From Sycon ciliatum (taxonomy: Eukaryota; Porifera; Calcarea; Leucosolenida; Sycettidae): a stretch of 64,000 nucleotides of DNA. Shown here in pieces: positions 165-54,414 of this stretch (the stretch's first letter is position 1; the number at the start of each line of letters is the position of its first letter). The notes under the pieces were generated by a model that was given only the letters and a program-made list of their open reading frames with translations, had not been told where the DNA came from and did no database searches. The position numbers and the translations under genes are program-made. The DNA lies in assembly GCF_964019385.1 (NCBI RefSeq), contig NC_088645.1, positions 6,111,921 through 6,175,920 on the forward strand, given 5' to 3'.

Positions 165-3100
165 CTGTATGATCCAGCAGTGTTTGTACAGCTAGCGACC
201 ATGTGACAGTTATGACTGCCTGACGCACACTCATCCACATCCACACAGTCCGTGCCATTACCCGCATAGCCGCTAGCGCAGCGACAATCGTAGCCGCCCG
301 CCGTGTTCAGGCAGGCAGCATTGGCATGGCAATCATGGCCGCCCTCCAAGCACTCGTCGTCGTCGACACACGATTGTCCATCCCCATTGTAACCACCAAT
401 GCAGGAACATGCATAGGAACCAGGGGTATTCATACAAATGGCATTGTTATGGCATGGGCTGCCACTGATGGGATTCAAACATTCGTTGACCTCCGTACAT
501 GATGTGCCATTGCCTGCAGAGAACGCACACATGGTGTGGTACCGGAGGCAAAGCCGAGTCAGAGCAAGCAATACTGGTAACCATGGCAGACAATTTGGCT
601 AGCGCCGGTGACCTAATAACTGCAGCATTTACATACCGGGTAGGCTAACAGCATCGTGAACACCTGATTATACGGGGCTTGAGCCAGCAACCATTTGTTT
701 ACAAAGCACCGCACACACATGTGGTACGGTGGTGCCCCAGCACTTGCCTGTGTATCTTCCACATCAGTACACTCACCAACATATCCACGCCCACAGCTGC
801 AGTCAAAGCCACCCGCAGTGTTGTTACACAGTGCGTTGCCATGACAATCATGGCCGCCCAACGCACACTCATCCAAATCCAGACACTCGGCGGCGGTTCC
901 GGAGCGCACGCTCTCCGCGAAGCCTTGCGCGCAGACGCACGTGAATCCGCCTTCGTAGTTTACGCACATTGCGTTCTCCTGGCATGCATCACCATCGGCG
1001 TTGCTGCTGCTACCACCACCATTGCCACTGATCAAACATTCGTCCACGTCGTCGCAATCCGTACCGTTACCGGCGTAGCCAGGGAGACAGGAGCACGTGT
1101 ACGCGCCCGGCTGGTTCTGGCAGGTGGCGTTGCTATGGCAATCATGGCCGCCGGTGGCACATTCGTCACGATCTTGGCACTGGACACCTAGAGTATAGGA
1201 CAAGAACGGCAAGTACACACACAGCAGAATGCTGCTAGACATGATTCATACGGTATATAAAGGGCAATGGTGGAGGAGTTGGTTGGGACATGAGTAGGGC
1301 GGTCTGTCAATGCACAGCGGCGGTGTATGCTGGACTGGAGAATATCAACAAAAATAGCACCAAGCCACGTTGGTAGATTGCAGTGCAAAATGTCCACAGG
1401 TGCTTGACAGTATTCGACAAGTCAGAGACCATACCTTTTAGTTCATTACTATCTCAGAGAAGACCTCTCCGACCATTCCTCTCCGACCATTCCTCTCCGA
1501 CCATTCCTCTCCGACCATTCCTCTCCGACCATACCTCTCCGACCATTCCTCTCCGACCATACCTCTCACACCATTCCTCTCCGACTATACCTCTCACACC
1601 ATTCCTCTCCGACCATACCTCTCCGACCATTCCTCTCTGATCATACGTTTTAAATTTCAGCATAATCGAGGCATTTTCTGTGACAGACCCTATGCACAAG
1701 CCATATACTAGTACACTGAGTCTTGTTCCCCTCGCTCCCTTGATATTGTGTTCTCCACTTACCATTTCCCATGTAGCCCTCATTGCACGCACACAGGAAA
1801 CCCGGCTCCGCGTCTGTACATGTAGCATTGTCATGGCAACCGTGCAGCATTTCCATGCACTCGTCAACGTTTGTGCAGTTGTCCTGGGCACTGTTGGCAC
1901 GGTAACCTGCAGGGAAGAACCAGAGGAAGACAATATGTTGTTACTGTAAGTCTACATATTTTCGGCCCATTCAAAGTTCGTCCTCCCAGGGCTTAAACAC
2001 ATTTCGGCCGCATAGTACTTCGAGTAGTAGTATTCTTTTATTTATAGTGGAGAAACCAAAACAGGGGATGCCTAATAACAATGGACCGACTGTCGCATCA
2101 AATGTTCGGCCTCCCCGGGCTAAAACACATTTCGGCCGCATCACATTTTCAGCCTGTACTGCTGCCACCTGCATACACTGCCACAGGGGACATTGGAAAA
2201 CAAATTTTCGGCCAAACATGACCAGGCCGAAAATAGCCGAAAATAAATATGCGCCGAATATTTGTAGACTTACGTAGTTGATTTGACTACCTTGTGAAGC
2301 ATGTAGGACTGGCATAGGTATTACATGCCAACCACCTCGATTTGGCCGCTACCGTCCCCGATATCGAGGGTGGTAATAGGCACCCTAAGTACATTTGCCG
2401 CACACCTCACGGCTACAATTGTATACATTTTCATACCTAGGTACAGTATGCCATTGTGCCGATCTCAGGTTTGCAAAGGTTGGCAGGCATGTTGGTTGCA
2501 AGGTCCAACTTGCAAATGTGATGCGACTTCCTGCTAAGACTACTGCACTATCGAAACAGTCACGGCGATTTCGCCGAGAAGCGGGCCAGCCAAGGCTTGA
2601 CCAGGCAAGCCAGGCAGATCAGCCAGTGCAGACAGACCAGATAGTGTCACCTGCAGAGCTTTATAGCACCTACACCCTCTTTGCAGTGTGCACTATGTTT
2701 TTGTTTTCGCTATTCTCTTCTATTCTGTGTAGGCATGTGCACTTTCATAAAAACAATTTAAAACAAAAACAGTCCGCACCTGCTTCACATGAGCAGAAGT
2801 AACTGCCGGGCATATTGTTACACAGTGCATTGACGGGGCACAGGGCGGTCGTGTCTGTACCACCACCACCACCGCCAGTACCAGTACCAGTATGTGCCTG
2901 CTGACACTCATCCACGTCCACACACTGCGTGACTCTGCCATCCCCACTGTACCCACTCCTGCACTGGCACGTGAAAGACCCGATGGTGTTCGTACAGTTG
3001 GCGTTCTGCTGACAGTCGTGCACGCCCACGGCACACTCATCCACATCTGCAGGTGTAGGAGGCATAAGACGGGTACAAGTACGTATGTAAGACCAGGACT

Positions 3101-11599: not shown

Positions 11600-14449
11600 T
11601 AATAATTGAGCCCTGTGATGAGAAAAGGGACCAAATGGCTTTTTTTACTCAAACCGAGCTCTAAACATCAGAAGAAAGCTGGTTTCATGCAGAAAACGAT
11701 GCAAAAAACAGAGCTGAATTATCTCAATTTTTGACAAAGCTACGGTCAATCTTCTAAGTGTCTTTTCAGATATTTTGCAGCCATACGAAGAACAGGATCA
11801 TACAAAACTTTGAGGACTTATTGACACGAAATGTATGGGAATGTTTGAGCCTGCACACAGCCTGTAGTTACTGGCAATTGACACTGACATTTGACTGGGC
11901 CAAGAGGAAAAACTGTACAAGGTAATACTGGCATGCCACCACCATCAAACACACAAAGATGGAGCAAGTCCACGTCCCGAGACATTAAAAATACAGCAAG
12001 AAAATATACAACCAGCAGCAATTTGGCATTAAAAAAGTTTTGAAGTAGCCGTGAGGTAGCAGAGTCTGTTACATTACTCCTCCACCGGAGAAGCACTAGT
12101 AGCGGCACTAGCAGACACATGCACAGCTGGCTTCGGGCAGAGCTCATCCTGGAATTGGTCAGGCACATGCGGGCGGATCTGATTATAGAGGTATTGCTGT
12201 CGTTGTTCGGATAGTCCTGGTGCTTGAAGGACTGGGGGCATCCCTGCGGCAACAAGGGCGTCTTTAGACGTGGTGAGCACCTCCACATCGCTGTAGGTGT
12301 CTTCCAGGGATGCCTTGACACTGACAATACCGGGCTTAGCTGCGTCGAATACCATGTGCTGAACCTTGCGGATTCCTTTCACTGGCTTGAAATGTTGAGC
12401 CAGAAATGTATCCCAGGCTCTCCATTCCAAACCAGATCCAGGAATCAGCTGGGCCTTGTTGCAAGATGCGCTTTCATTGACCACTGCCACCAGCTGCCCC
12501 ATGGTGTAGCAGTCGCTACGCCGGAACTTTTGCTTCAGCAGGCCAAAGCAGCCATCGACAAGGCACCGGGTATGGCCAGTCAACATGAAGGACAGTTCAA
12601 TACGGTCATGCAGTCCCATAATCACCCTCCAGCAGAAATACGCTACGATAGTCCGATTCTTGTTCTGGCCTGCGCAATTATCACAGTGCAGGAGGCAGCC
12701 TTTCTCATGTAGTCCATAGAATGAAAAAAAATGGTGCAGCATGGAGGCCACCGCGTTCGGACCATGACTCGACTTGCCGTCTTGCCCGATGGTGTCTGAC
12801 TCGTCGATCAGGTAGTTGACCTGCTGAGGCACAGCTTCATTGTTCACACCGAATATTTGCACCTTACGAGGTGCCTTAAAGTACAGGGGGCCCTCCTGAC
12901 GTGCCGACTGCGGCAGTGCCACGTTCTGGGCAAAGTCGAACGTGTAGTGCGGGTGGTGCAGATCGCGTGAACATGGCTGGCTCAGCTGCTGCTGGATAGT
13001 CGTACATGCATCAAGCTCTGCCCGGGCCTGTAGTGTCGCTTGACGGTAGTAGTCACGCTCTGCTTGCGTTGCGTCGAGGTGTTGTTTGAATTCATCGCAT
13101 GCTGCACTCTTCTCGGGTTCCGTCCGTGCTTCCTGAATCCGTCGGCGGAAATTCTCACAGCGCGAGCATACGTCAGTGCGCGGCGTCATAATCTGAATGT
13201 TTGGCAAGCAGTCAAGCCAAACGGACCGAAATGTGTGGTAGCCCACAGCCCTGATGCCTGATTCCTCTAATGAGGTCACATAGCACTTGTGGATGGATTT
13301 AACCGTTGATGACGCTGGCAGATAAGTTGGCGGTGCTCCAGCTCGCCCTCGAGTCGGTGCTGGCTGTGGTATGCCGAAGCGCTCAGTGTAAGTTTTTAGA
13401 AATTGCACAACGGCAGACACAGTATCGTACGACAAAGCATGTTTAGGCTTCCTGCCGACATTGCCATGGGTCCGTGGCACCAGCCCATTCTCCTCCAAAT
13501 GTTTTTTCAGATTTTTTAGTTGCTTTGATCCGATGTTGTACAGCAATCGAAATCCACCGGCGCAAACCTCTTCGCCTTGGTAAGTATACCGATGCCATTG
13601 CTTCTTTCTCTTCTTCCCATGAGTCGTGGTGTCAGTAGAGTACTTGGATGACTCAAGAAGGCCCAAAATCACCAGCTCCTTCTCCCCTTTCTCCATTTCT
13701 GCGATGTTGAGCTGCAGCAGTCGAACATCTTCTGCATCAAACTTGTCCAAGCACTTTTTGCTGCACCCGCAGTTCACAGTTATTTCTTCCGCAGCTGCCG
13801 CCTCAGCAAGCGCTGGTTCTGCAGCCTGCGCTGGTTCTGCAGCCTGCGCTGACTCTTCGCCGAGGTATGATGCTGCAACTGCATCCACATCGAGTGACTC
13901 GTCCAAAAAGTGGTCTTCCCGATCATCGCCGTCTTCATCAGAGGAAGAGGATAGTTCTGACAACTCCAACGACAACTCCCTGTCAGAATCATCACTTGAC
14001 TCGGCAATCTCCACTTCGATGCCCAAAAACTCTCTATCTAGCTCTGTCAAAGCTTCCCTGAGACTCGCATCAACGGTAAATGTTGGGATCGACATGTTTG
14101 CAAACAAATTTCTAAGCAGAACGAGAAAGAAACATCTGAAGTGATGTTCAAAGATTTTCTCTTTGCAACGGCAGCTCGCGGACGCGTAGCCTGCATGTCA
14201 CGTACACCGTTCTCTGGCATGCGTGGGCCGATTGTGACGATCGAAATACGTACAGAAAGGCCACCAAAGCAGCTCTGCACTCGTTTTTACCGCATTGAAT
14301 CACACAAAACCCTTCTAAAGTTATTCCAAATCCAAGCGAATGCAGTCGAAAATCAGCGATTTTTCAAGTGCCCACTTTCAAACGCGTTGTACTCAACTGT
14401 CAGCTGACAGCCATTTGGTCCCTTTTCTCATCACAGGGCTCAATTATTA
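11600..14449 (-). mobile_element. DNA transposon with perfect 41-bp terminal inverted repeats
   Basis: The sequence at 11600-11640 is the exact reverse complement of 14409-14449 over 41 bp (outer end TAATAATTGAGCCCTGTGAT). The 2.85-kb unit encloses one long uninterrupted ORF (12074-14107, minus). Because the outermost bases are AT-palindromic, the target duplication is ambiguous; AATT (4 bp) or TA are possible. Perfect repeats plus an intact ORF point to recent insertion. Confidence 0.9.
12074..14107 (-). CDS. Putative transposase-like protein of the 2.85-kb element, 677 aa
   Basis: Single-exon ORF starting at ATG 14107, about 300 bp inside the right terminal repeat. The N-terminus (residues 1-110) is acidic and Ser-rich. 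A CGCSKKC cysteine motif follows near residue 112, then a basic stretch (GKKRKKQ), a VCSRC pair near residue 310, and a C-terminal block with HCDNCAGQNKN and GHT...DGCFGLLKQKFRR. The last two motifs recall the DUF7869-type proteins found in many marine invertebrates, which look transposon-derived; that family link is from memory. A catalytic Asp in HCDNC is inferred, not shown. It is intact with no frameshift or stop, and the 41-bp inverted repeats around it support a transposase role. Confidence 0.8.
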   Translation of the reverse strand: MFANMSIPTFTVDASLREALTELDREFLGIEVEIAESSDDSDRELSLELSELSSSSDEDGDDREDHFLDESLDVDAVAASYLGEESAQAAEPAQAAEPALAEAAAAEEITVNCGCSKKCLDKFDAEDVRLLQLNIAEMEKGEKELVILGLLESSKYSTDTTTHGKKRKKQWHRYTYQGEEVCAGGFRLLYNIGSKQLKNLKKHLEENGLVPRTHGNVGRKPKHALSYDTVSAVVQFLKTYTERFGIPQPAPTRGRAGAPPTYLPASSTVKSIHKCYVTSLEESGIRAVGYHTFRSVWLDCLPNIQIMTPRTDVCSRCENFRRRIQEARTEPEKSAACDEFKQHLDATQAERDYYRQATLQARAELDACTTIQQQLSQPCSRDLHHPHYTFDFAQNVALPQSARQEGPLYFKAPRKVQIFGVNNEAVPQQVNYLIDESDTIGQDGKSSHGPNAVASMLHHFFSFYGLHEKGCLLHCDNCAGQNKNRTIVAYFCWRVIMGLHDRIELSFMLTGHTRCLVDGCFGLLKQKFRRSDCYTMGQLVAVVNESASCNKAQLIPGSGLEWRAWDTFLAQHFKPVKGIRKVQHMVFDAAKPGIVSVKASLEDTYSDVEVLTTSKDALVAAGMPPVLQAPGLSEQRQQYLYNQIRPHVPDQFQDELCPKPAVHVSASAATSASPVEE

Positions 14450-41636: not shown

Positions 41637-44600
41637 ATACATGTACGTGTTCATGCACACACGCACACACTCATACATGCACATACACCGTCACACACAC
41701 ACACATAGCCAAGGCCAAGCTGACATGCAGAGACTGACGCACGCAAGACGCACGCAAGACCCGGAGACCGCGGCAAAACAATGATCACTTCAGAAAACAA
41801 GCGGACAGAGAGGACCTGAACAAGTAGATGAGAACACAATACTAGTTCCAGCCTCAGGGGCGTCGGAAAGTATTTTAGCGTGGTACGGCCAACCATATGC
41901 TGTTGCTATTGAGCATTGAGAATGAGTGAGAATCGTTACCTTTGGTACACGTAAACCAGTCAATTTCGGGAAATCGTTATATTGCGCCTCGTTAGAATAG
42001 TGGCTTTTACAGTACTTGTTTGGGTTTGGGGTGGCTCCTCCGAAACATTTCTAAATATGGAGTCCAGATCAGTGGTTTTTATTGCTTCCAGGGAACCATG
42101 GGCATTGAGTGGAAGGGTCAATACCGCAGTGACCGTAGCGGGTCCGATGCCCCTCAGCCTAGATCAACCTACTTCAGCAGCCTACATCAGTACACGTGCA
42201 GTGTGAGCATACCTGGAGAAGGAACTGTGTGCCGTCGGGAATCTTGTACTGACGGAGGTCTTCATCCTGCAGGAACATGAAAACATGTAACATTACAAGA
42301 TAGGCACATTATAAGTCTACAATAGTAGCCATATATGGCAGCGCCGGCCGACTGTGCTGCCATAATATATGGCCCTTATTTCAAAAAGAGGAACAACCCT
42401 GGACTGTAGCGGACGTTGAAACTTAATTCCATTGAGAATTCAAGCAGCCACGGGGTGCTGGCCTTGCAGCCGCGAGCACTGTTGGCCTATTGTTTTACAG
42501 CGTGTACATGAACTACAATTAGGGGTGAAACGATTAGTTCGAATATTCGTGTATTCGTTCGAAAATTTCAAACTAGCGAGTATTCGAAATTTTGCACTCG
42601 ATCGTTTTTTTGGTTTTTTGTTTTGGTATTGGCATTCTATTTTTCAAAAACTTTCGTTGCATCGCTCGTCCACTGGTACATGGTATGCATGCGTTATGCA
42701 TGCCTTTGAGTCAGTATTTTATGACTTGGACGATGGGATCACCACGGCAAGTAACGTTAGTTATGAAAGTACTGATGAAAATCGTTACTTTTATTACACT
42801 TTGTACAAGACGTTGGCGACTTTTGTTCTATGTTCACAGATAATTTCTTCCCAATTGGTCGAGAACTCACAAATCTAGAGCTCTTGAATTTTGATAAAAT
42901 ACTCGAAATAATCGGATACTCGATCGAATATTATGAACGAGTGATCGATTGGTCAAAATAGATACTCGTTTCACCCCTAACTACAATGCATGTGCATGTA
43001 GGCGCTAAAAGCAGTTGAAGGGCGCCGGCCCCGGTCATCCCATCAGATTACAATCAGTCCAATGATATGACAGTAAGTGTGAGTTACAAAGTCTGAAGAA
43101 AAATGTTGAATGGTCTCTGCTGGGATGACGACTACACCATAGCTCAGTGGTTAGAGCATCGCTGGCTACAGGCGAGGGTCCCGGGTTCGAGTCCTGGTGG
43201 TGACAGTCAATTTTTTCCTTCAGACTTTTCCCGTTTGTGTCTTTCCCTCAAGCCAGTGAACACAACAGTAGGTAGAACTAAATGTAATGGTCAGACCCTG
43301 GAACAACCTCATCACCGTTGTTAGTACATGTGATGGTCAGACCCTGGAACAACCTATTACCGTTGTTGAACAGTGCCAGTCAGTGAAAGCAGGCGAATCA
43401 CCGAGGCACATTCAACGTGGATAGCGGCTGAGGGTATACATATGTAGGACTCAGTGACCAATCACGGTCCCCGTGACCAGTCAAACAGTCACAACCCCCC
43501 CCCCCCCCCCATGACCAGTCACAACTTAGTTTACCAGTCACAATGCCCCGTGACCAGACACAAGTCACCACACATGTACATGTGTAAAGTTAAATACGGA
43601 CAGCGGCCGAGGGGATAAACTATAAAGGGTCATTGGAACATGAGCCCATTCATCTGCACGGCTTAGCCCAACACAAGATAGATAGAGAGAGAGAGAGGGG
43701 AGGGGGGGGGGGGAGACTGAGCTGTGTTGCAACTCCAAGTTTCATGTTGTCACGATCATCTGGCTTACCCCAACAAACGTGTAGCGTCCGTCAGCACCTC
43801 CACTCTTCAGCGACGTCACAATTGCGTCATTGACTTGCGTCGACGTCATCTCACTGGTGATGCGAAAACCAACCTAAGACCACGCATGGACGTACCGAGG
43901 GTGCACAGCGATCAGTGGAGCAATGTCAGGGGCGTCGGATGGTATTGCACGATGTATGGTACGGCCATGAAGATGGGGGTCTGATGGCCGTCCCCCGGGG
44001 AAATGTTTTAGGAAAATTGGGCCCAAATAGCCAATATTTCATTGCTTCAGAAATCACAGGATAAACTTATTGGTGCGGCTTTGGGCGCACCTGCCGCACC
44101 GATTCGGACGCCCCCTGAATGGGTATTTTCTGGCAAAACAACTACAGTGCATTTTCGTTAAGAGGAACGCTGACAAGACAAACCATGATCCTCCTTAAAG
44201 CCATTCAGTTCAACCCCTTCGCCACCGGATGTGCTATCACATACTGCTAACAGCCATGGCTTTGAATAATAATAAGTACCGTATCTGCTGGAGTATAACG
44301 CGCACCTGAGTACAATGCGCACCCCCATTTTTAAGCAATGTTTTGGCAATTCAAGGTATATGCGGAGAATAATGCGCAGCCTTGATTTGAGTGCAGTATT
44401 AAACATAAAGACAGTACTATAGTGCGACCATTGTCATAAAAAGTGCATTCAGATGGCTTGCGCAGGGTCAGAGGTGGCACACTTCGTAACAGTTTGATGC
44501 ATTGCCCTACTTTTCGAAGTACTATACATGCTCATTTTTTAAATATTCGGAGCATGGTGCGCACCAGCGATTTGGGGCCAGAAGTAGTACCTCCAAAGTG

Positions 44601-46979: not shown

Positions 46980-48471
46980 TTTATTATTATTATTAAATTT
47001 TTGATAGGGCAATCCCCACAGGCCTAAGGCCTTTTGACAGGGTACCCTAAAAAATGAAGAACAGAATTACGGAAGGTATGCAAGGAAGAACTAGAGCGGA
47101 CCTCCGCTGGGAGGGCATTCCAGCGGTCAGAGCCAAGGAAAGTGACAGAAAATAAACCATAGCGACGTTTGGCTGTCGGAAGAGCAAGGGAAGAGGACAC
47201 TTGAGAGCGGGTGTCTACCTCTATCATTCCCCACCCATTTCACCCAAAGAACATCCAAAAGTTCAAGACAGCAGCTTATCACCATCTCCTCAGAACGAAC
47301 TGGCACTGGGCCACTCATAGCATACGCGAGTAAGAGGGTACAGTGTCCTACCCTGCTTGGACATACATGTAATCTCTCCTCACGGGCAGCCTCCTCTTGA
47401 ATTTAAAAGTCTAACAGCGTTCACATCAATACTCAACTTATTCTTTTGCTCACTGAGCAATACAATCTTTCCATTTTCTTTCTTCTGTTTTCTTTTTCAA
47501 TTTAATCCTCCCCACCCAATATCCCTTTGGTGCGTCCATGGAGCTATGAAGCCGAGACCTCTGGTCGGCGGAGCTTAATGGGCCCCACCACCACACTCCA
47601 TCATTCACCCCAGTGTCTGGAGATATGTGGATTTTGTAGAGAAAAAAAAAAAAAAAACTAGTGCAGGTAGAATTAGAGCGGAGACAGAAACAGTTAGCAA
47701 CAAAGACACTAGCCAGATCATGAAGCGCACGGTACGTTAGAACGTACAGCTTGAATTGGTACCTAACAGACAAGGGAATGATATGGTAGCGGGCAAGAAC
47801 AAGGGAGACATCAGATAGGCGGGGCATGCAAAATACAATACGCAGCGCTCTATTGCTAAGTCGGACAACACGGTCATGGAGGGAGGCAGAAAGGCAGTGA
47901 GCAAAGGAATTAGACCCATACTCAAGTATGGACTGAATGGAACAGATGTAGAAAGCCCTCTTAGCATCGATCGTTAAATGGTCTCGGACCTTTCTAAACA
48001 TTCCTAACTTACAGCCTATTTTACGTTCTAATTGTGCAATGTGAACCCCAAAGGAGAGATGTTCGTCAAGAACTATACCGAGGTATTTCACGTGTGCACT
48101 AGGGGTGATGGTGACATCTTCAATCTGTACGTTGACATCGGGGTCAAGAGGTTTCGACTTTGGCCTGAACACAACAAGCTGGGTTTTCGAGGAGTTCAAC
48201 ATAAGACCTCTCGTTGCCAAGAATTCCTTTACTTTGATGATGTCCTCTGTGAGGTCTTTGCATAAGTTCTGGACATTCTTCCCCGCCCTGTATAAAGACA
48301 CATCATCTGCGTATTGACGGGCTTTGCAGTGTTTGGGCACAGCGGGGAGTTTCCTCACGGACAAGTTAAATAGAAACGGCCCTAAAACAGAGCCTTGTGG
48401 AACGCCTCTGTTGCTTGTGTATGGTTGCCCTTGTTGAGTCTTAGTGACCACGCACTGCTGTCTGTTTGTAA
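46980..48471 (-). pseudogene. LINE Y, 3' half: RT catalytic core to tail
   Basis: A minus-strand reading from 48471 contains RGVPQGSVLGPFLF and the catalytic QYADDVSLY, then HVKYLGIVLD and ILEYGSN, all from a non-LTR reverse transcriptase. The C-terminal end at 47227-47024 (RRYGLFSVTF..SDRWNALP) is shifted in frame, and a (TAA)n tail lies at about 46982-46996. The coding sequence is interrupted by a poly-A insertion (47400-47657). Its N-terminal half is at 53016-54345, beyond insertion X. The CR1/Jockey-like clade assignment is tentative. Confidence 0.88.
47400..47657 (+). mobile_element. Poly-A-tailed insertion in LINE Y
   Basis: A sequence of about 260 bp ends in A16 on the plus strand, with pyrimidine-rich ttcttttgctc and ttttctttcttctg sections. 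It breaks the LINE Y frame right after its RSNSTCT residues. No target duplication found, so the left border is approximate. Confidence 0.5.
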
Positions 48472-48613
48472 TAATAATAATAATAATAAAACAGGTCGCG
48501 TAATGAAGCAGCATAACGATAGATGTGCAAAGTCATGATGCCTGGTCCGCTTCTGTCCTGGGTTCACTACCCCGTGCGTTGCAGCCGCGAGCAAAACCAG
48601 CTCAGGCTGAGAG

Positions 48614-50305
48614 TCACCTCCATGATTGCTTGTCCAAAGCGCGCATTCTGAGCCCACTCAGATCAGTCATGGTCTTCAGTGGCATGTCTCTGGCAGCTGT
48701 GCTTGCCTTGACTGCCGTGGCCAGGTTCGATTTCGGGCGTCCACGCACACCGGTGACATCTCGACGGAAGTAGTTGTCCATTGCCTGCTGTGGCGGGGCA
48801 TCTGAGGGCATCCTCAGAACATGACCCAACATCCGGAAACGGCGGACAGCAACGGTGTGCGAAAGTGGCTGTGTGTGTGCTCTGGAATATAGGTCTTTGT
48901 TGGAGATGATGGCGGGATACCTAATTCCGAACAAGTTCCGTAGTTGACGTCTATGGAAGGCGTTCAGCTTCTCCAGTGCAGCCTCTGTCAGTCCCCAGGT
49001 TTCGCAGTTGTATAACAGTGTTGGTAGGACGATGGCATTGTAGAGACGAAGCCTGGTTTCCTCGGATACAAGTTGACGTCGTATCCAGAGCGAATACATG
49101 CGGCCATACGATGTTGATGCTTGGTCCATTCGTCGGCTCAAGTCCTCCTCTTCCCCCAAGAGAGAGCCAAGTTGCTTCGATCTTCGCCATTCGGTGGTGG
49201 AGGCAGAGATGTGAAGCCACTCTGTTTTGCTGCTGTTAACGTTGAGTGACCAGTCACCCAGGCCGTCAGCTATCACGGGTAGGGAGTTGGCAAGCCATTG
49301 TCGCTCAGTCGAATAGAAGGAAATGTCATCGGCATATCCTGTTTCCTGTGGTATTGCTGCATCAGTGTCTGGCCGTGGTGGTAGTTTGCTTCGAGTCTCC
49401 CTCAGTGCTGCTTCCAGGTAGCAAACAAACAGAACCGGGCTCAGCCCATCACCCTGTGGTGTACCTAGCGTGCTAACAAACGCCTCCGCTGAAGTGGCAC
49501 CCACTTTCACAGAGAGTGTTGTACCATACAGCAAATGGTGAATCAGGCAAGCCTCGTCAGGTCCGGTAATCTCTGACATAACAGCAAGGAGCTTTGTGCG
49601 GCTAATGGTGTCGAATGCTTTCGACATGTCGAGGCCAAGGACGTGGCAATCCCACACGAAGTGGGTGGCCTTAGCCGAAATCCAGCGCTGTGTCCACACC
49701 ACATCGGCAGTGCCACGGCCAGGCCTGAAACCAGACGAAGTGGATCCAAGATAATGCGACACACGTGGTGTGATACGTTTGAGCACAACGAGTGAAATGA
49801 CCTTGCGCAGGGTGTTCAGCAATACAATCGGTCTCAGGTTTGCAACTGGTCCCCGCGCCTTGTTAGGTTTTGGTAACGGTATCAATATGCCTGGACCAAT
49901 AACACTACACAGGTGGTCGCCCCTGGTGATGCTGTTGTTGATCATGGTGGTGATGATCGGGGAGATGTACTCAGCACCGTATTCATGGTATTTGAGGAGT
50001 TCTGCGCATACACCATCCGGCCCACATGCTTTCTGATTTCGCAGTCGTCTCAAAGCCGCCTCTACTTCTTCGGTGGAAACGGGCGTCTCCAGTGTGTGCG
50101 GAGCTGGCGGTGGCAGCAGGTCATCAGAAGTGTTGAACTGCCCCTGATAGTGATCACGTATGCGAGATGCCTTTTCCTCATCGCGCATGAGGATGTGACC
50201 ATCAGCCGACTCGACGAAGAGCTGCTGCGGCTTGCCACGTTTGAGCTGGGAGGCTGCTATAAACATTTGCGCGGAGGTTGGAGCGCTCTCAACCGCCTCG
50301 GCAAT
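48614..50305 (-). pseudogene. LINE X reverse transcriptase
   Basis: A long minus frame from the right border of Z to the stop at 48614. It has ALRRLRNQKACGPDG, LRPIVLLNTLRKV, LDMSKAFDTI, TPQGDGLSPVLF, the catalytic ETGYADDISFY, then NCETWGLTE and RFRMLGHVLRMP. It covers a complete non-LTR RT domain with no stops. The preceding coding part continues at 51927-51634 beyond insertion Z, so the ORF is broken. Confidence 0.92.
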
Positions 50306-51633
50306 AGACCAATCCCGAAAAGATTGTCTGGGTTCGTGAAAGGGGGCACGCGTGCAAGCCAGCACGTGTGAAGTGCATCGTTTTGTATTCAGTTTGTGTG
50401 TGTCAGCTCATGGCGGAGGAGAGAGAGACTTTTGCTCGCCGAGCTGAAGCTAAAGGATTTGATGGAGTCCTGCCAGCAGCTAGTCAAAGGACCTTCGGTA
50501 CCTTAGGCAGACCCTGACGGAGTTTGGAGGCCAGCAAGCTCTCGGTGAGGAGAGAAACATTCGCGTGGCGATGGACTCTCCGTAAAAAATGCAAGCTACA
50601 TAGCGCCGACATACTGCAACAGGCCACGATTTCAGCTAACTAACTCGATCTGCCGCTTCACAAAGTTCAACTATTTACAAGTCCTGACTGTTGTAGTCTG
50701 AAGCTGGACTCTCATCGCCCACCTACAGGTAGCTTTTGGAGCTGATGGATTTCCCGACTTGGACTCCTTCCGCAAACTCTCGCAATATTACTACAGTGTA
50801 TGCTGTGTTTCCGCACGCTCGTGTCGACATGTCACCTATACTGTACATGTACCGGGTCGCGGAGGAGCTTGACGACCTCCGCTGACTCCAGGTTTCCGAA
50901 ATACTGCCGTCGTCTTCGTTGATGTTGCTGGTGACATTCTCCCCTTGCAGGACGTGCGCATAGTTGTCGTCTCGGGGGTAAAGACTATGTTGTCTTTCGA
51001 AATAGTTCTTCATCACGCTCGCGCGAATGATGTTTCTCATCATGAACTCGTTCCGACGGTGTGACACGGCGATGGTCTTTGGCGGGGCACTGGCTTGGCG
51101 AAAAAGATATCTTCTTGTACAATATAACACTGATCGGCTGCAGATGAGTACAGTCACTTCGTGGTTGGTCCTATAGGAGGGCAGCTGCCAGGAAAGAGGC
51201 AGAACTCATCGAAGACGAAGCGCTCGCAACAAACAATAGCACTCGAAATATCTCGTAAGATTTAGGGCCTATCGCTTTGAGCCACAGCGCTCACAGCCTT
51301 ACCTACTTCATCAAAGTGAGCTCTACATGTTCGTTGACCTCTTCACACTACACAGAAGAGCGAAACAAGGATTATGTCTTAGCATTTCAACTCCAACAGC
51401 AGACCATTACCAGTGCGAGAGAGAAATCTACAAAGGGCTTTGCTTTCTGTCGCATCGTCTCTCTTGCATGCAACTGACGAGAAAACCGTGTACTTACCCT
51501 CGCATTCACACGCGAACTATCAAACACGTCCTGTGCCGCATGCTGATCAGGTAGTGCCATGTATGTATTGTATAGTGTACTCTCAGTTGACATGCCCCCT
51601 TTCGAACCCAGACAATCTTTTCGGGATTGGTCT
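50306..51633. mobile_element. Element Z, 1.33 kb with about 43-bp inverted repeats
   Basis: The left end AGACCAATCCCGAAAAGATT (50306) matches the reverse complement of the right end (51633) for about 43 bp with a 2-bp indel. Removing it restores the LINE X frame across LDR-I-AEAV if a 2-bp AT duplication is removed, or if insertion was between A and T with no duplication. Internal frames (minus 50723-51157, plus 51277-51477) match nothing I know, so it is probably non-autonomous. Confidence 0.85.
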
Positions 51634-51927
51634 ATTCTGTCCAGGCGAGAGTTGGCTTCGGTCCGTTGGATATTACGGATTTCATGCATAACACAATTGC
51701 GCTCCTTCTTCAGCTGCGCAGCATCATGGTGTCCGGACTCAGCTAATATTCGCAGTTCCCGTTGCCGCAGTGAAAGCCGAGCAACCTGTGCGTTTGGTTG
51801 AACGAAACGGTTCCTAGCCTCGGATCGGTGCAGATGACCAATGGCGGTGTCTGCTGCAGACTTGATCGCAGATGTGGCAGCTGACCAGACATCAGCGGGA
51901 GCATCACTTGCCGGAGTTACTTGAAGG
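51634..51927 (-). pseudogene. LINE X, segment between endonuclease and RT
   Basis: The minus-strand frame reads ASDAPADVWSAA, then QVARLSLRQREL, and RNIQRTEANSRLDRI up to the border of Z. This is the linker region found between the endonuclease and RT in this type of LINE; it joins the RT at 50305. Confidence 0.85.
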
Positions 51928-52077
51928 AGTTAGTGTTGGGCTGACTGCTCAGCAAACTTTCTCTCTCCCACTCTATTGCTCTAAATCTTTACTATCTCCC
52001 AACCTTTCTCCCAACCTTTCTGTCACAGCCTGTCAGGCTACCCGTGCTTTGTTTCCGCGTGACGAGCCTTCCCGTAT

Positions 52078-53015
52078 GGCTTTGAGAAACGCTCGTATCG
52101 CGACGTTCAATGTTCGTGGACTGTGTTCGAACTCAAAACAGCAACAACTCGCTCGTGATTTACAAACGTATCGCGTCGACTTCTGTGGACTTCAGGAGCT
52201 GAGAGCAAAGGACCCGTTCGACAGAAGCATTAGTAAAACTCACAGGCTAGTGAGCTTTGGCCTGACAGACGACAGCCATGGCGGAATTGGCTTCGCTGTT
52301 TCAAAAAAATTCGAACCGTGCATTTCAAAAATCAAAAAACTGTCGGATCGAGTGGGCTATGTTGACCTATCGTTTCCGCAAGCCAAGAACTCATCACTGC
52401 CAGTTCGGTTTGTTGTGGCACATGGACCCACGAACCCAAGGTCGAAGGAACAGCCTGAGCTCAGAGACCAGTTCTACGACGCACTATCTTCCGCATGGAA
52501 TGGGACAAGCAAACGAACGCTTGTCATCGGAGTGGGGGACTTCAACAGCAAAGTTGGCAGCGCTGTCACCTCGTGTGTCGGAAATTACAGCAAAGGGGCC
52601 CGCAACGAAAACGGCCAGGCGCTCGTGGACTGGGCAAACTCTCACCAGTTGTTGCTAGCCAACACAGTATTCCGCTATTCAATGCGCTACCGAACAACAT
52701 GGACTGGACAGGTTAGAGACAGCAATACGAATCGTACTAAAAAAATCTACAACATGATCGACTATGTGGTGGTTCCATCGCATTGTAAGCCCATCATTAA
52801 CAAGGCCCGATCGTATGCTGGTACAGAGGTGTTCAGCGACCACAAGCTAGTGATCGCTGACATGCTTTTCTGTGAGCTATTCAAAATCTTCCAAACAAAA
52901 TCAAAAAAGGAGTCGCCGTATGCTGTCCATGGATTAATAGATGGCTCCCGTAGACCGGAATATCGCTCGGCTCTTCGGGCACACCTTCAAGTAACTCCGG
53001 CAAGTGATGCTCCCG
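52078..53015 (+). pseudogene. LINE X APE-type endonuclease, inverted
   Basis: A plus-strand frame from ATG 52078: IATFNVRGLCSNSKQ, FCGLQELRA, GGIGFAVS, VVAHGPTNP, VIGVGDFNSKVG, YNMIDYVVV and FSDHKLVIADM. These are the N-to-C motifs of an apurinic-type endonuclease, which nicks target DNA. The catalytic Glu (QEL), Asp/Asn (GDFN) and SDH are present. The frame is intact but faces away from its RT because of the inversion. A T/C-rich 5' UTR lies between 51930 and 52078. Confidence 0.92.
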
Positions 53016-54345
53016 CTGTCTGTTTGTAAGGTAGCTGTGAAACCATTGCAGAGCGACTCCGCCAATACCAATCTCAAGTAGTTCTTGAAGTAACATGTTG
53101 TGGTTGACAGTGTCAAAGGCCTTTGACATATGAAGGAAGGCAGCCACTACGTAGTCACCCTTGTCCAAGGCGAGCATCCAATCGTTGGTAACACAAGTCA
53201 GCAAGTCTTCGCAGGACTGGCCTCTGCGGTAGGCGAATTGCTCTGCAGGGAGATGTTGCAGTGGGGGTGGTGCATTCTGGATGTAGCGTATGAGTTGATC
53301 ATGCACTATGTGCTCAAGTAACTTTGACATATGGGGGAGCAGTGATATTGGTCTGTAGTTGGAGGAGACCGACTTATCACCGCGCTTGTGGATGGGGCGA
53401 ACATGGGCTGACTTGTACAGAGCTGGGAATTCACCAGACGTCAGAGATTCAGATAACAACTTGGATAGTGAGGGAGCGATCTCATCGTTGATTAACTTGT
53501 AAGCAGCAACTGGAACATTGTCTGGTCCGGTGGCTTTACGGCTTTTCATGCGTTGGATGTAGTATTGCACTTCCGGAACACTGACTGATGAAAACTGAGC
53601 TAATGAGTATTCAGGTAGGGGGCCGTGAGGCATGCAATGTGCACTATCAGAAATCGAGGGATCGTTCACGACTTTCGCAAATGTCTTTGAGATGTCGGAG
53701 ACATTAGCAGCAGGTTCCTGATTTGCTTTAGCTCTGCCAAGTAGATTGTTTATAATACCCCACTGTTCTCTTGGGTGGCCTCTGTGGCAGACAAGTTGTT
53801 CTTGGAAGTATGTCGACCGTGCTCTAAACTGTTGTACGAGATCTGACTGGTCTGGGTGTCTGAGCATTGCACGGTGCGCCCGTTTGCGCTTAAACAATAG
53901 AAGGCGGAGTTCATCATCCATCCATGGGGCTGGAGCGTATGCTTTCTTGATATTCACACGTTTAACAGGGCAATGCTCGTCTAGTGCACCCTGAACTGCA
54001 GTCTGCCAATGTACAATGCGTGTGTTTAGAGACTCTGGCGATGAGGCACTAGCGTGGTGAGACAGGTTGAACATTTTCTCAGCGGCTGTTTCTTGGAAAT
54101 CTATGATATTCAGAGACCGAACTGATGGCTTACGTATCTGTATTTGTCTACTCGTCTGGTGTGGCTGAGCATCAGAATGGACGGTGAAATGAACATGAAC
54201 CAGATTATGGTCTGAAATATCACACGCAATTACAGTCGAACTACTGAAGACTATATCAGTCCCGCTGAGTACTGCAGGTGGTGTGGTGAAAGTGGAGTTG
54301 GGTACTAATACTAGATCTATCGTTGTTCCGCTTGGATATCTGGTT
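53016..54345 (-). pseudogene. LINE Y, 5' half: endonuclease end and RT N-terminus
   Basis: The minus-strand frame starts with PSGTTIDLVLVPN and CDISDHNLVHVHF (the C-terminal end of an APE-type endonuclease, 5'-truncated at about 54345). RT motifs KSRKATGPDNVPVAA, NYRPISLLPHMSKLLE and AFLHMSKAFDTVNH follow. It stops at YLTNRQ, where LINE X entered; the RT resumes at 48471. Confidence 0.9.
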
Positions 54346-54414
54346 GGTGCGGTACTAGCCTGCTGGATGGCCCATGTATTATGTCATACATTATGTCATG
54401 CATTACGTCATGCA

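Follow-up and report, generated by a model that had tools for sequence, protein, structure and literature searches.

The 64,000-nucleotide stretch of Sycon ciliatum DNA analysed here (the window; C3:6111921-6175920, NC_088645.1) carries, with a probability that we place at about 0.83, an intact, recently mobile, autonomous Sola2-type DNA transposon with terminal inverted repeats (TIRs), in which the DUF7869 protein encoded by the single long gene is the transposase. At least in this genome, DUF7869 very probably serves as the transposase domain in TIR transposons whose target-site duplications (TSDs) have the form AWWT. These 4-bp duplications agree with those described for the Sola2 group, so the element is probably a transposon of a known kind, its transposase domain bearing an uninformative Pfam name. 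The newness implied by the initial annotation is therefore doubtful, a Sola2-like, known kind being probable, but its proposal that DUF7869 can be assigned to transposition is retained.

The complete element occupies positions 11608 to 14441 of the window (2,834 bp; its gene lies on the minus strand) and is bounded by a perfect pair of 33-bp TIRs, at 11608-11640 (plus strand, GAGCCCTGTGATGAGAAAAGGGACCAAATGGCT) and 14409-14441 (minus strand). The same 4 bp, AATT, adjoin the left end (11604-11607) and the right end (14442-14445) as the TSD, which is identified on the right from the sequence and the comparison with other copies and whose length is corroborated both by further copies of the element and by empty sites. 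The 31-base core of the TIR occurs at only two sites in the window when up to three mismatches are allowed, and at a mean of 0.00 sites in 100 shuffles. Perfect inverted repeats of 41 bp had originally been described; the pair is present, but the TIR proper is 33 bp long. The outermost 8 bp at either end (TAATAATT and AATTATTA) consist of the palindromic AATT duplication and 4 bp of symmetrical flank, and they are assigned to TSD and flank rather than to the TIR because the bases at these positions differ in other copies.

The predicted transposase gene (12074-14095, minus strand) comprises 673 codons from the ATG plus the stop codon. The frame is open as first reported, but the reported length of 677 aa counts from a TTG, and translation from the ATG yields 673 aa (14095-12077, minus strand). 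The start MS...FTxD is common to five of the six aligned proteins; the sixth, L021, starts beside an N run. The next longest frame in the element reaches 172 aa from a start codon. Both motifs that had been pointed out in the protein, CxCxxxC (as CGCSKKC) and HCDNCAGQNKN, are found, and the supposed likeness to a family of unknown function is borne out by the profile search, which returns Pfam DUF7869 (PF25273) at residues 443-591 (12323-12769, minus strand; E about 3.5e-18, 66.3 bits against a curated cut-off of 26). The domain is detected in all ten representatives of the lineage, with E values down to 5.7e-27. Its Pfam label is without function; the match spans D472 and D514 of the window protein and begins downstream of D387.

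Conservation in the ten representatives outlines a candidate catalytic stretch from D387 (TFDF) to D514 (GHTRCLVD), at 12554-12937 on the minus strand. D472 (DNCxGQN) and D514 (GHTRCxVD) are invariant in all ten, and D387 is present in nine, with a glycine in L038. E326, D308, E432 and D562 are likewise invariant, and the triad D387-D472-D514 is therefore one reading of the conserved acidic residues. In our own reading of the sequence, the strand-like segments TFDFAQ, KVQIFGV, QVNYLI, CLLHCDN and IELSFML, with D514 at the opening of the stretch that follows, would fit the order of an RNase-H fold with a DDD triad whose members are about 84 and 41 residues apart. Single-sequence AlphaFold predictions of protein parts of 280 and 158 residues gave mean pLDDT values of 35 and 33, and averaged Chou-Fasman propensities gave no information. 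Searches of the PDB by sequence or profile produced nothing credible: one gave no match, another a single row at E 2.9, and a third a row at E 0.95 and one at E 2.3, both to unrelated proteins.

The N-terminal part of the protein contains the CGCSKKC motif (residues 109-115; 13751-13771, minus strand), a candidate zinc site in which C109 and C111 are invariant in the ten representatives. A weak match to the bacterial ISNCY model hints at a DNA-binding part, possibly a helix-turn-helix (HTH), at residues 187-241 (13373-13537, minus strand). These residues resemble model positions 21-75 with an E value of 0.0029, whereas the score of 16.8 bits lies far below the cut-off of 250 and the candidate catalytic part has no match to this model; the ISNCY match recurs in three of the ten members at E up to 1. 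The protein shows no convincing match to a named transposase or to a curated profile of one, and the PHROGs search yielded no match. Relatives beyond this genome were found neither in viral contigs (queried with the protein and alignment A1) nor in prokaryotic genome contigs or phage records. A match to the RAG1 importin binding model in two of ten members (best E 0.0054) and five other weak Pfam rows were dismissed as chance. In all 15 pairs compared among six families, pN (0.30-0.37) is far lower than pS (0.75-0.87, saturated); the protein is under purifying selection, as expected for the enzyme of an element.

A DNA search of the 538-Mb genome returned at least 68 matches (40 of 68 candidates scored), of which at least 12, the window copy included, extend over 1.2-2.85 kb at 99-100% identity on C1, C2, C3, C4, C12 and C14. 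Eight near full-length copies on these same contigs (L039-L046) are separated by 0-25 substitutions and at most 17 gap positions. The copy on C4 shows zero differences from the window copy over 2,834 bp, whereas 24 substitutions separate the window copy from the most divergent one, which lies on C2. Residues 1-673 are covered without a stop at eight places, one of which has a two-codon deletion. These places overlap the eight near full-length copies; the two sets differ because L042 is frame-shifted and because, at one place where the frame is intact, an end is missing. The element thus displays the TIRs, TSDs, dispersed near-identical copies and intact frame of an autonomous DNA transposon, and copies with the same ends, anticipated elsewhere in the genome, are numerous. 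Near 77643075-77645849 of C1 (L017/L048), a window-family copy is enclosed by the arms of a different inverted repeat, whose pieces measure 46 and 34 bp; here one mobile element was apparently inserted in another.

Both ends are recognisable in eight window-family copies, and in six of these the 4-bp flanks are equal (AATT, AAAT, ATAT, ATAT, AATT and ATTT) and all fit AWWT. One TIR of the ATTT-flanked copy is slightly rearranged; in the two copies with unequal flanks, L046 and L048, the terminal bases of one end are changed as well. When eight families are considered together, 18 of the 25 elements with two placed ends show equal 4-bp flanks (ATAT 10, AATT 3, AAAT 2, ATGT 2, ATTT 1), whereas 20,000 shuffles of the right flanks among these elements averaged 4.8 and did not exceed 11. 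AWWT describes 16 of the 18; the other two are ATGT. Flanks are unequal in L046, L048, L033, L020, L023, L037 and L059. At least one equal pair is present in five of the eight families, and none in the other three among the 25 elements. The count takes in L045, L046 and L048 (one equal, two unequal), without which 17 of 22 are equal. Outside it stand L021, L022, L024, L032, L034, L038, L056, L057 and L053-L055, together with the window-family pieces L044, L047 and L049-L052, in which two ends could not be placed or whose family was already represented by another copy.

The genome was also queried with 12 of 14 joined flanks, the best 40 of 6,204 candidates being scored. Matches spanning the junction were obtained for at least four of the 12 insertions, namely one from the window family (L040) and three (L026, L029 and L030) from a family whose protein is about 50% identical. 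All seven empty sites that were aligned are continuous across the junction and contain the 4 bp once, compared with twice in the filled site. The target duplication is real and is 4 bp long. For the window copy and seven other queried insertions no empty site is present among the best 40 of 6,204 candidates, and because scoring was confined to these, the lack of a match is not evidence of absence. The empty site sought to fix the duplication was thus supplied by sister insertions, at least four of the 12 queried, and not by the window copy. Near-identical copies, TSDs, empty sites and purifying selection together lend good support to the original view of a recently active autonomous transposon and to the assignment of DUF7869 to transposition.

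The element belongs to a wider DUF7869 lineage in this genome. A protein search gave 67 matches, many at 39-67% identity, from several families with near-identical copies of their own. The PF25273 model finds at least 150 places (150 scored of 177 candidates, the element's own copies and fragments included), and it has zero matches in 14 control genomes. Even families whose proteins are 36% identical to that of the window element (alignment A2) have GAGCC, GGGCC or GGCCC ends and ATAT or ATGT duplications, and in seven of the eight families one end or both have GAAAA at positions 15-19. The relatives that were examined, a part of the total, have inverted termini and differing flanks, and do not correspond to the homologues in conserved loci lacking inverted repeats that the initial annotation had named as evidence against transposition.

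A 2,280-aa open frame around the relative at C1:25968561 was considered as a host fusion and rejected, since its upstream part reads as N; in L069, from 1 to about 4900 (C1 from 25963600), an N run beside a DUF7869 copy produces a false frame of more than 2,000 aa. A DUF7869 match at C10:15824688-15825131 lies inside a 2,115-aa open frame, which may be an N-run artefact like that of L069, or a fusion.

Comparison with described systems places the element closest to Sola2 in its ends and duplications. The available excerpts of the Sola2 description report AT-rich 4-bp TSDs of the form AWWT, such as ATAT, AAAT and ATTT (PMC3627910), and those on the Sola superfamily report a DDD transposase, 4-bp TSDs, TIRs of 11-1124 bp and lengths of mostly 2-9 kb (PMC10741241). 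With a 33-bp TIR and 2,834 bp the window element falls within these sizes, and it shares with Sola2, as far as those excerpts go, the 4-bp AWWT duplications, the TIRs, a transposase-like gene and a length in the Sola range; its conserved aspartates are candidates for a DDD triad. It differs in that the DFa-2 Sola2 transposase has 888 aa, compared with 673 aa here, and in that the amoebozoan elements described in the same excerpts have 12-21-bp TIRs and Fanzor1, whereas the TIR here is 33 bp long (PMC3627910). The link is drawn from ends and duplications, set beside the published description of Sola2, and the element is termed Sola2-like here. The piggyBac and Kolobok elements are likewise DNA transposons with 4-bp duplications, but they duplicate TTAA, according to the parts of the respective reports available (piggyBac, PMC5199201; Kolobok, PMC9587614), and TTAA is found in none of the 18 equal flanks, so both were rejected.

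The DUF7869 transposons might instead form a superfamily of their own, with a DDE/D transposase that lacks protein homology to Sola2, GAGCC/GGGCC-type ends and an AWWT preference shared with Sola2 by chance; such a superfamily would have been active recently and have diversified strongly in this genome. In its favour, none of the libraries searched ties the protein to a named transposase at the protein level, and the GAGCC, GGGCC or GGCCC termini with GAAAA at 15-19 make a coherent set of their own. The length and AWWT form of the TSDs, the element size, the TIR range and the candidate DDD pattern nevertheless agree with Sola and Sola2 as portrayed in the available excerpts, and we regard a separate superfamily as unlikely. 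A different doubt concerns the protein itself, which could be a passenger or accessory of an element moved in trans by another transposase; its catalytic activity is a predicted one and it carries no transposase annotation. This alternative appears decidedly improbable, because the DUF7869 gene is the sole frame longer than 200 aa in the element, and because families whose DNA has diverged have the DUF7869 protein and the end structure in common.

The position of the cysteine motif ahead of the candidate catalytic region is also compatible with a Kyakuja-Dileera-Zisupton (KDZ) element. CxC-type cysteine motifs are linked to KDZ. No KDZ-named Pfam model is among the matches, however, and the 4-bp duplications differ from the 8-bp duplications of Zisupton and the 7-bp duplications of Kyakuja given in the accessible part of PMC12730594, which leaves this assignment with very little probability. 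On C12, three equally scoring relatives are spaced at intervals of 80-84 kb (2400795, 2485137 and 2565145), which looks like a repeated chromosomal segment and is the one observation in favour of segmental duplication, or an assembly artefact, instead of transposition. Extended to the window family, such an origin is hardly credible, given that the flanks of its copies differ, the ends are exact, 4-bp duplications are present and empty sites exist for four insertions.

For the preferred reading, a Sola2-type transposon mobilized by its DUF7869 protein, a tentative mechanism can be outlined. The N-terminal cysteine and HTH-like parts of the protein would bind the 33-bp TIRs, and the DDD triad, with D387, D472 and D514 as candidates, would cut the element out; the data do not separate a cut-and-paste from a replicative route. 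Joining to the target DNA with a 4-bp stagger, followed by gap repair, would then generate the duplication.

If this reading is right, proteins whose sole label is DUF7869 should first be read as transposases or their derivatives, and false host genes could be removed from annotations. The family also provides candidates for an active Sola2-type transposon; since several frames are intact and two copies of 2,834 bp are identical, a laboratory test is possible. Were the DUF7869 transposons a superfamily of their own, DUF7869 proteins elsewhere would belong to an undescribed superfamily, either as its transposases or as domesticated derivatives of them. DUF7869 is named in no paper of the literature searched, which excludes most subscription journals and bioRxiv; in the same incomplete set, no paper was retrieved for six spelled variants of the DNC-GQNK motif, nor by broader searches that combined Sola with novel superfamilies and unknown-function domains.

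Several other features were observed in the window. Reverse transcriptase frames at 47450-48532, 48614-50407 and 52881-54383 (minus strand) and a frame with an endonuclease/exonuclease/phosphatase domain at 51866-53029 (plus strand) look like fragments of non-LTR retrotransposons. An exon-like frame at 613-1245 (minus strand) contains calcium-binding EGF domains (PF07645, E 7.1e-27), which would suit an animal host. A tRNA-like sequence with the anticodon CTA at 43133-43205 (plus strand), called tRNA-Pyl by ARAGORN and matched by the Rfam tRNA model at 38.7 bits, may be a repeat that derives from a tRNA, or else a suppressor tRNA.
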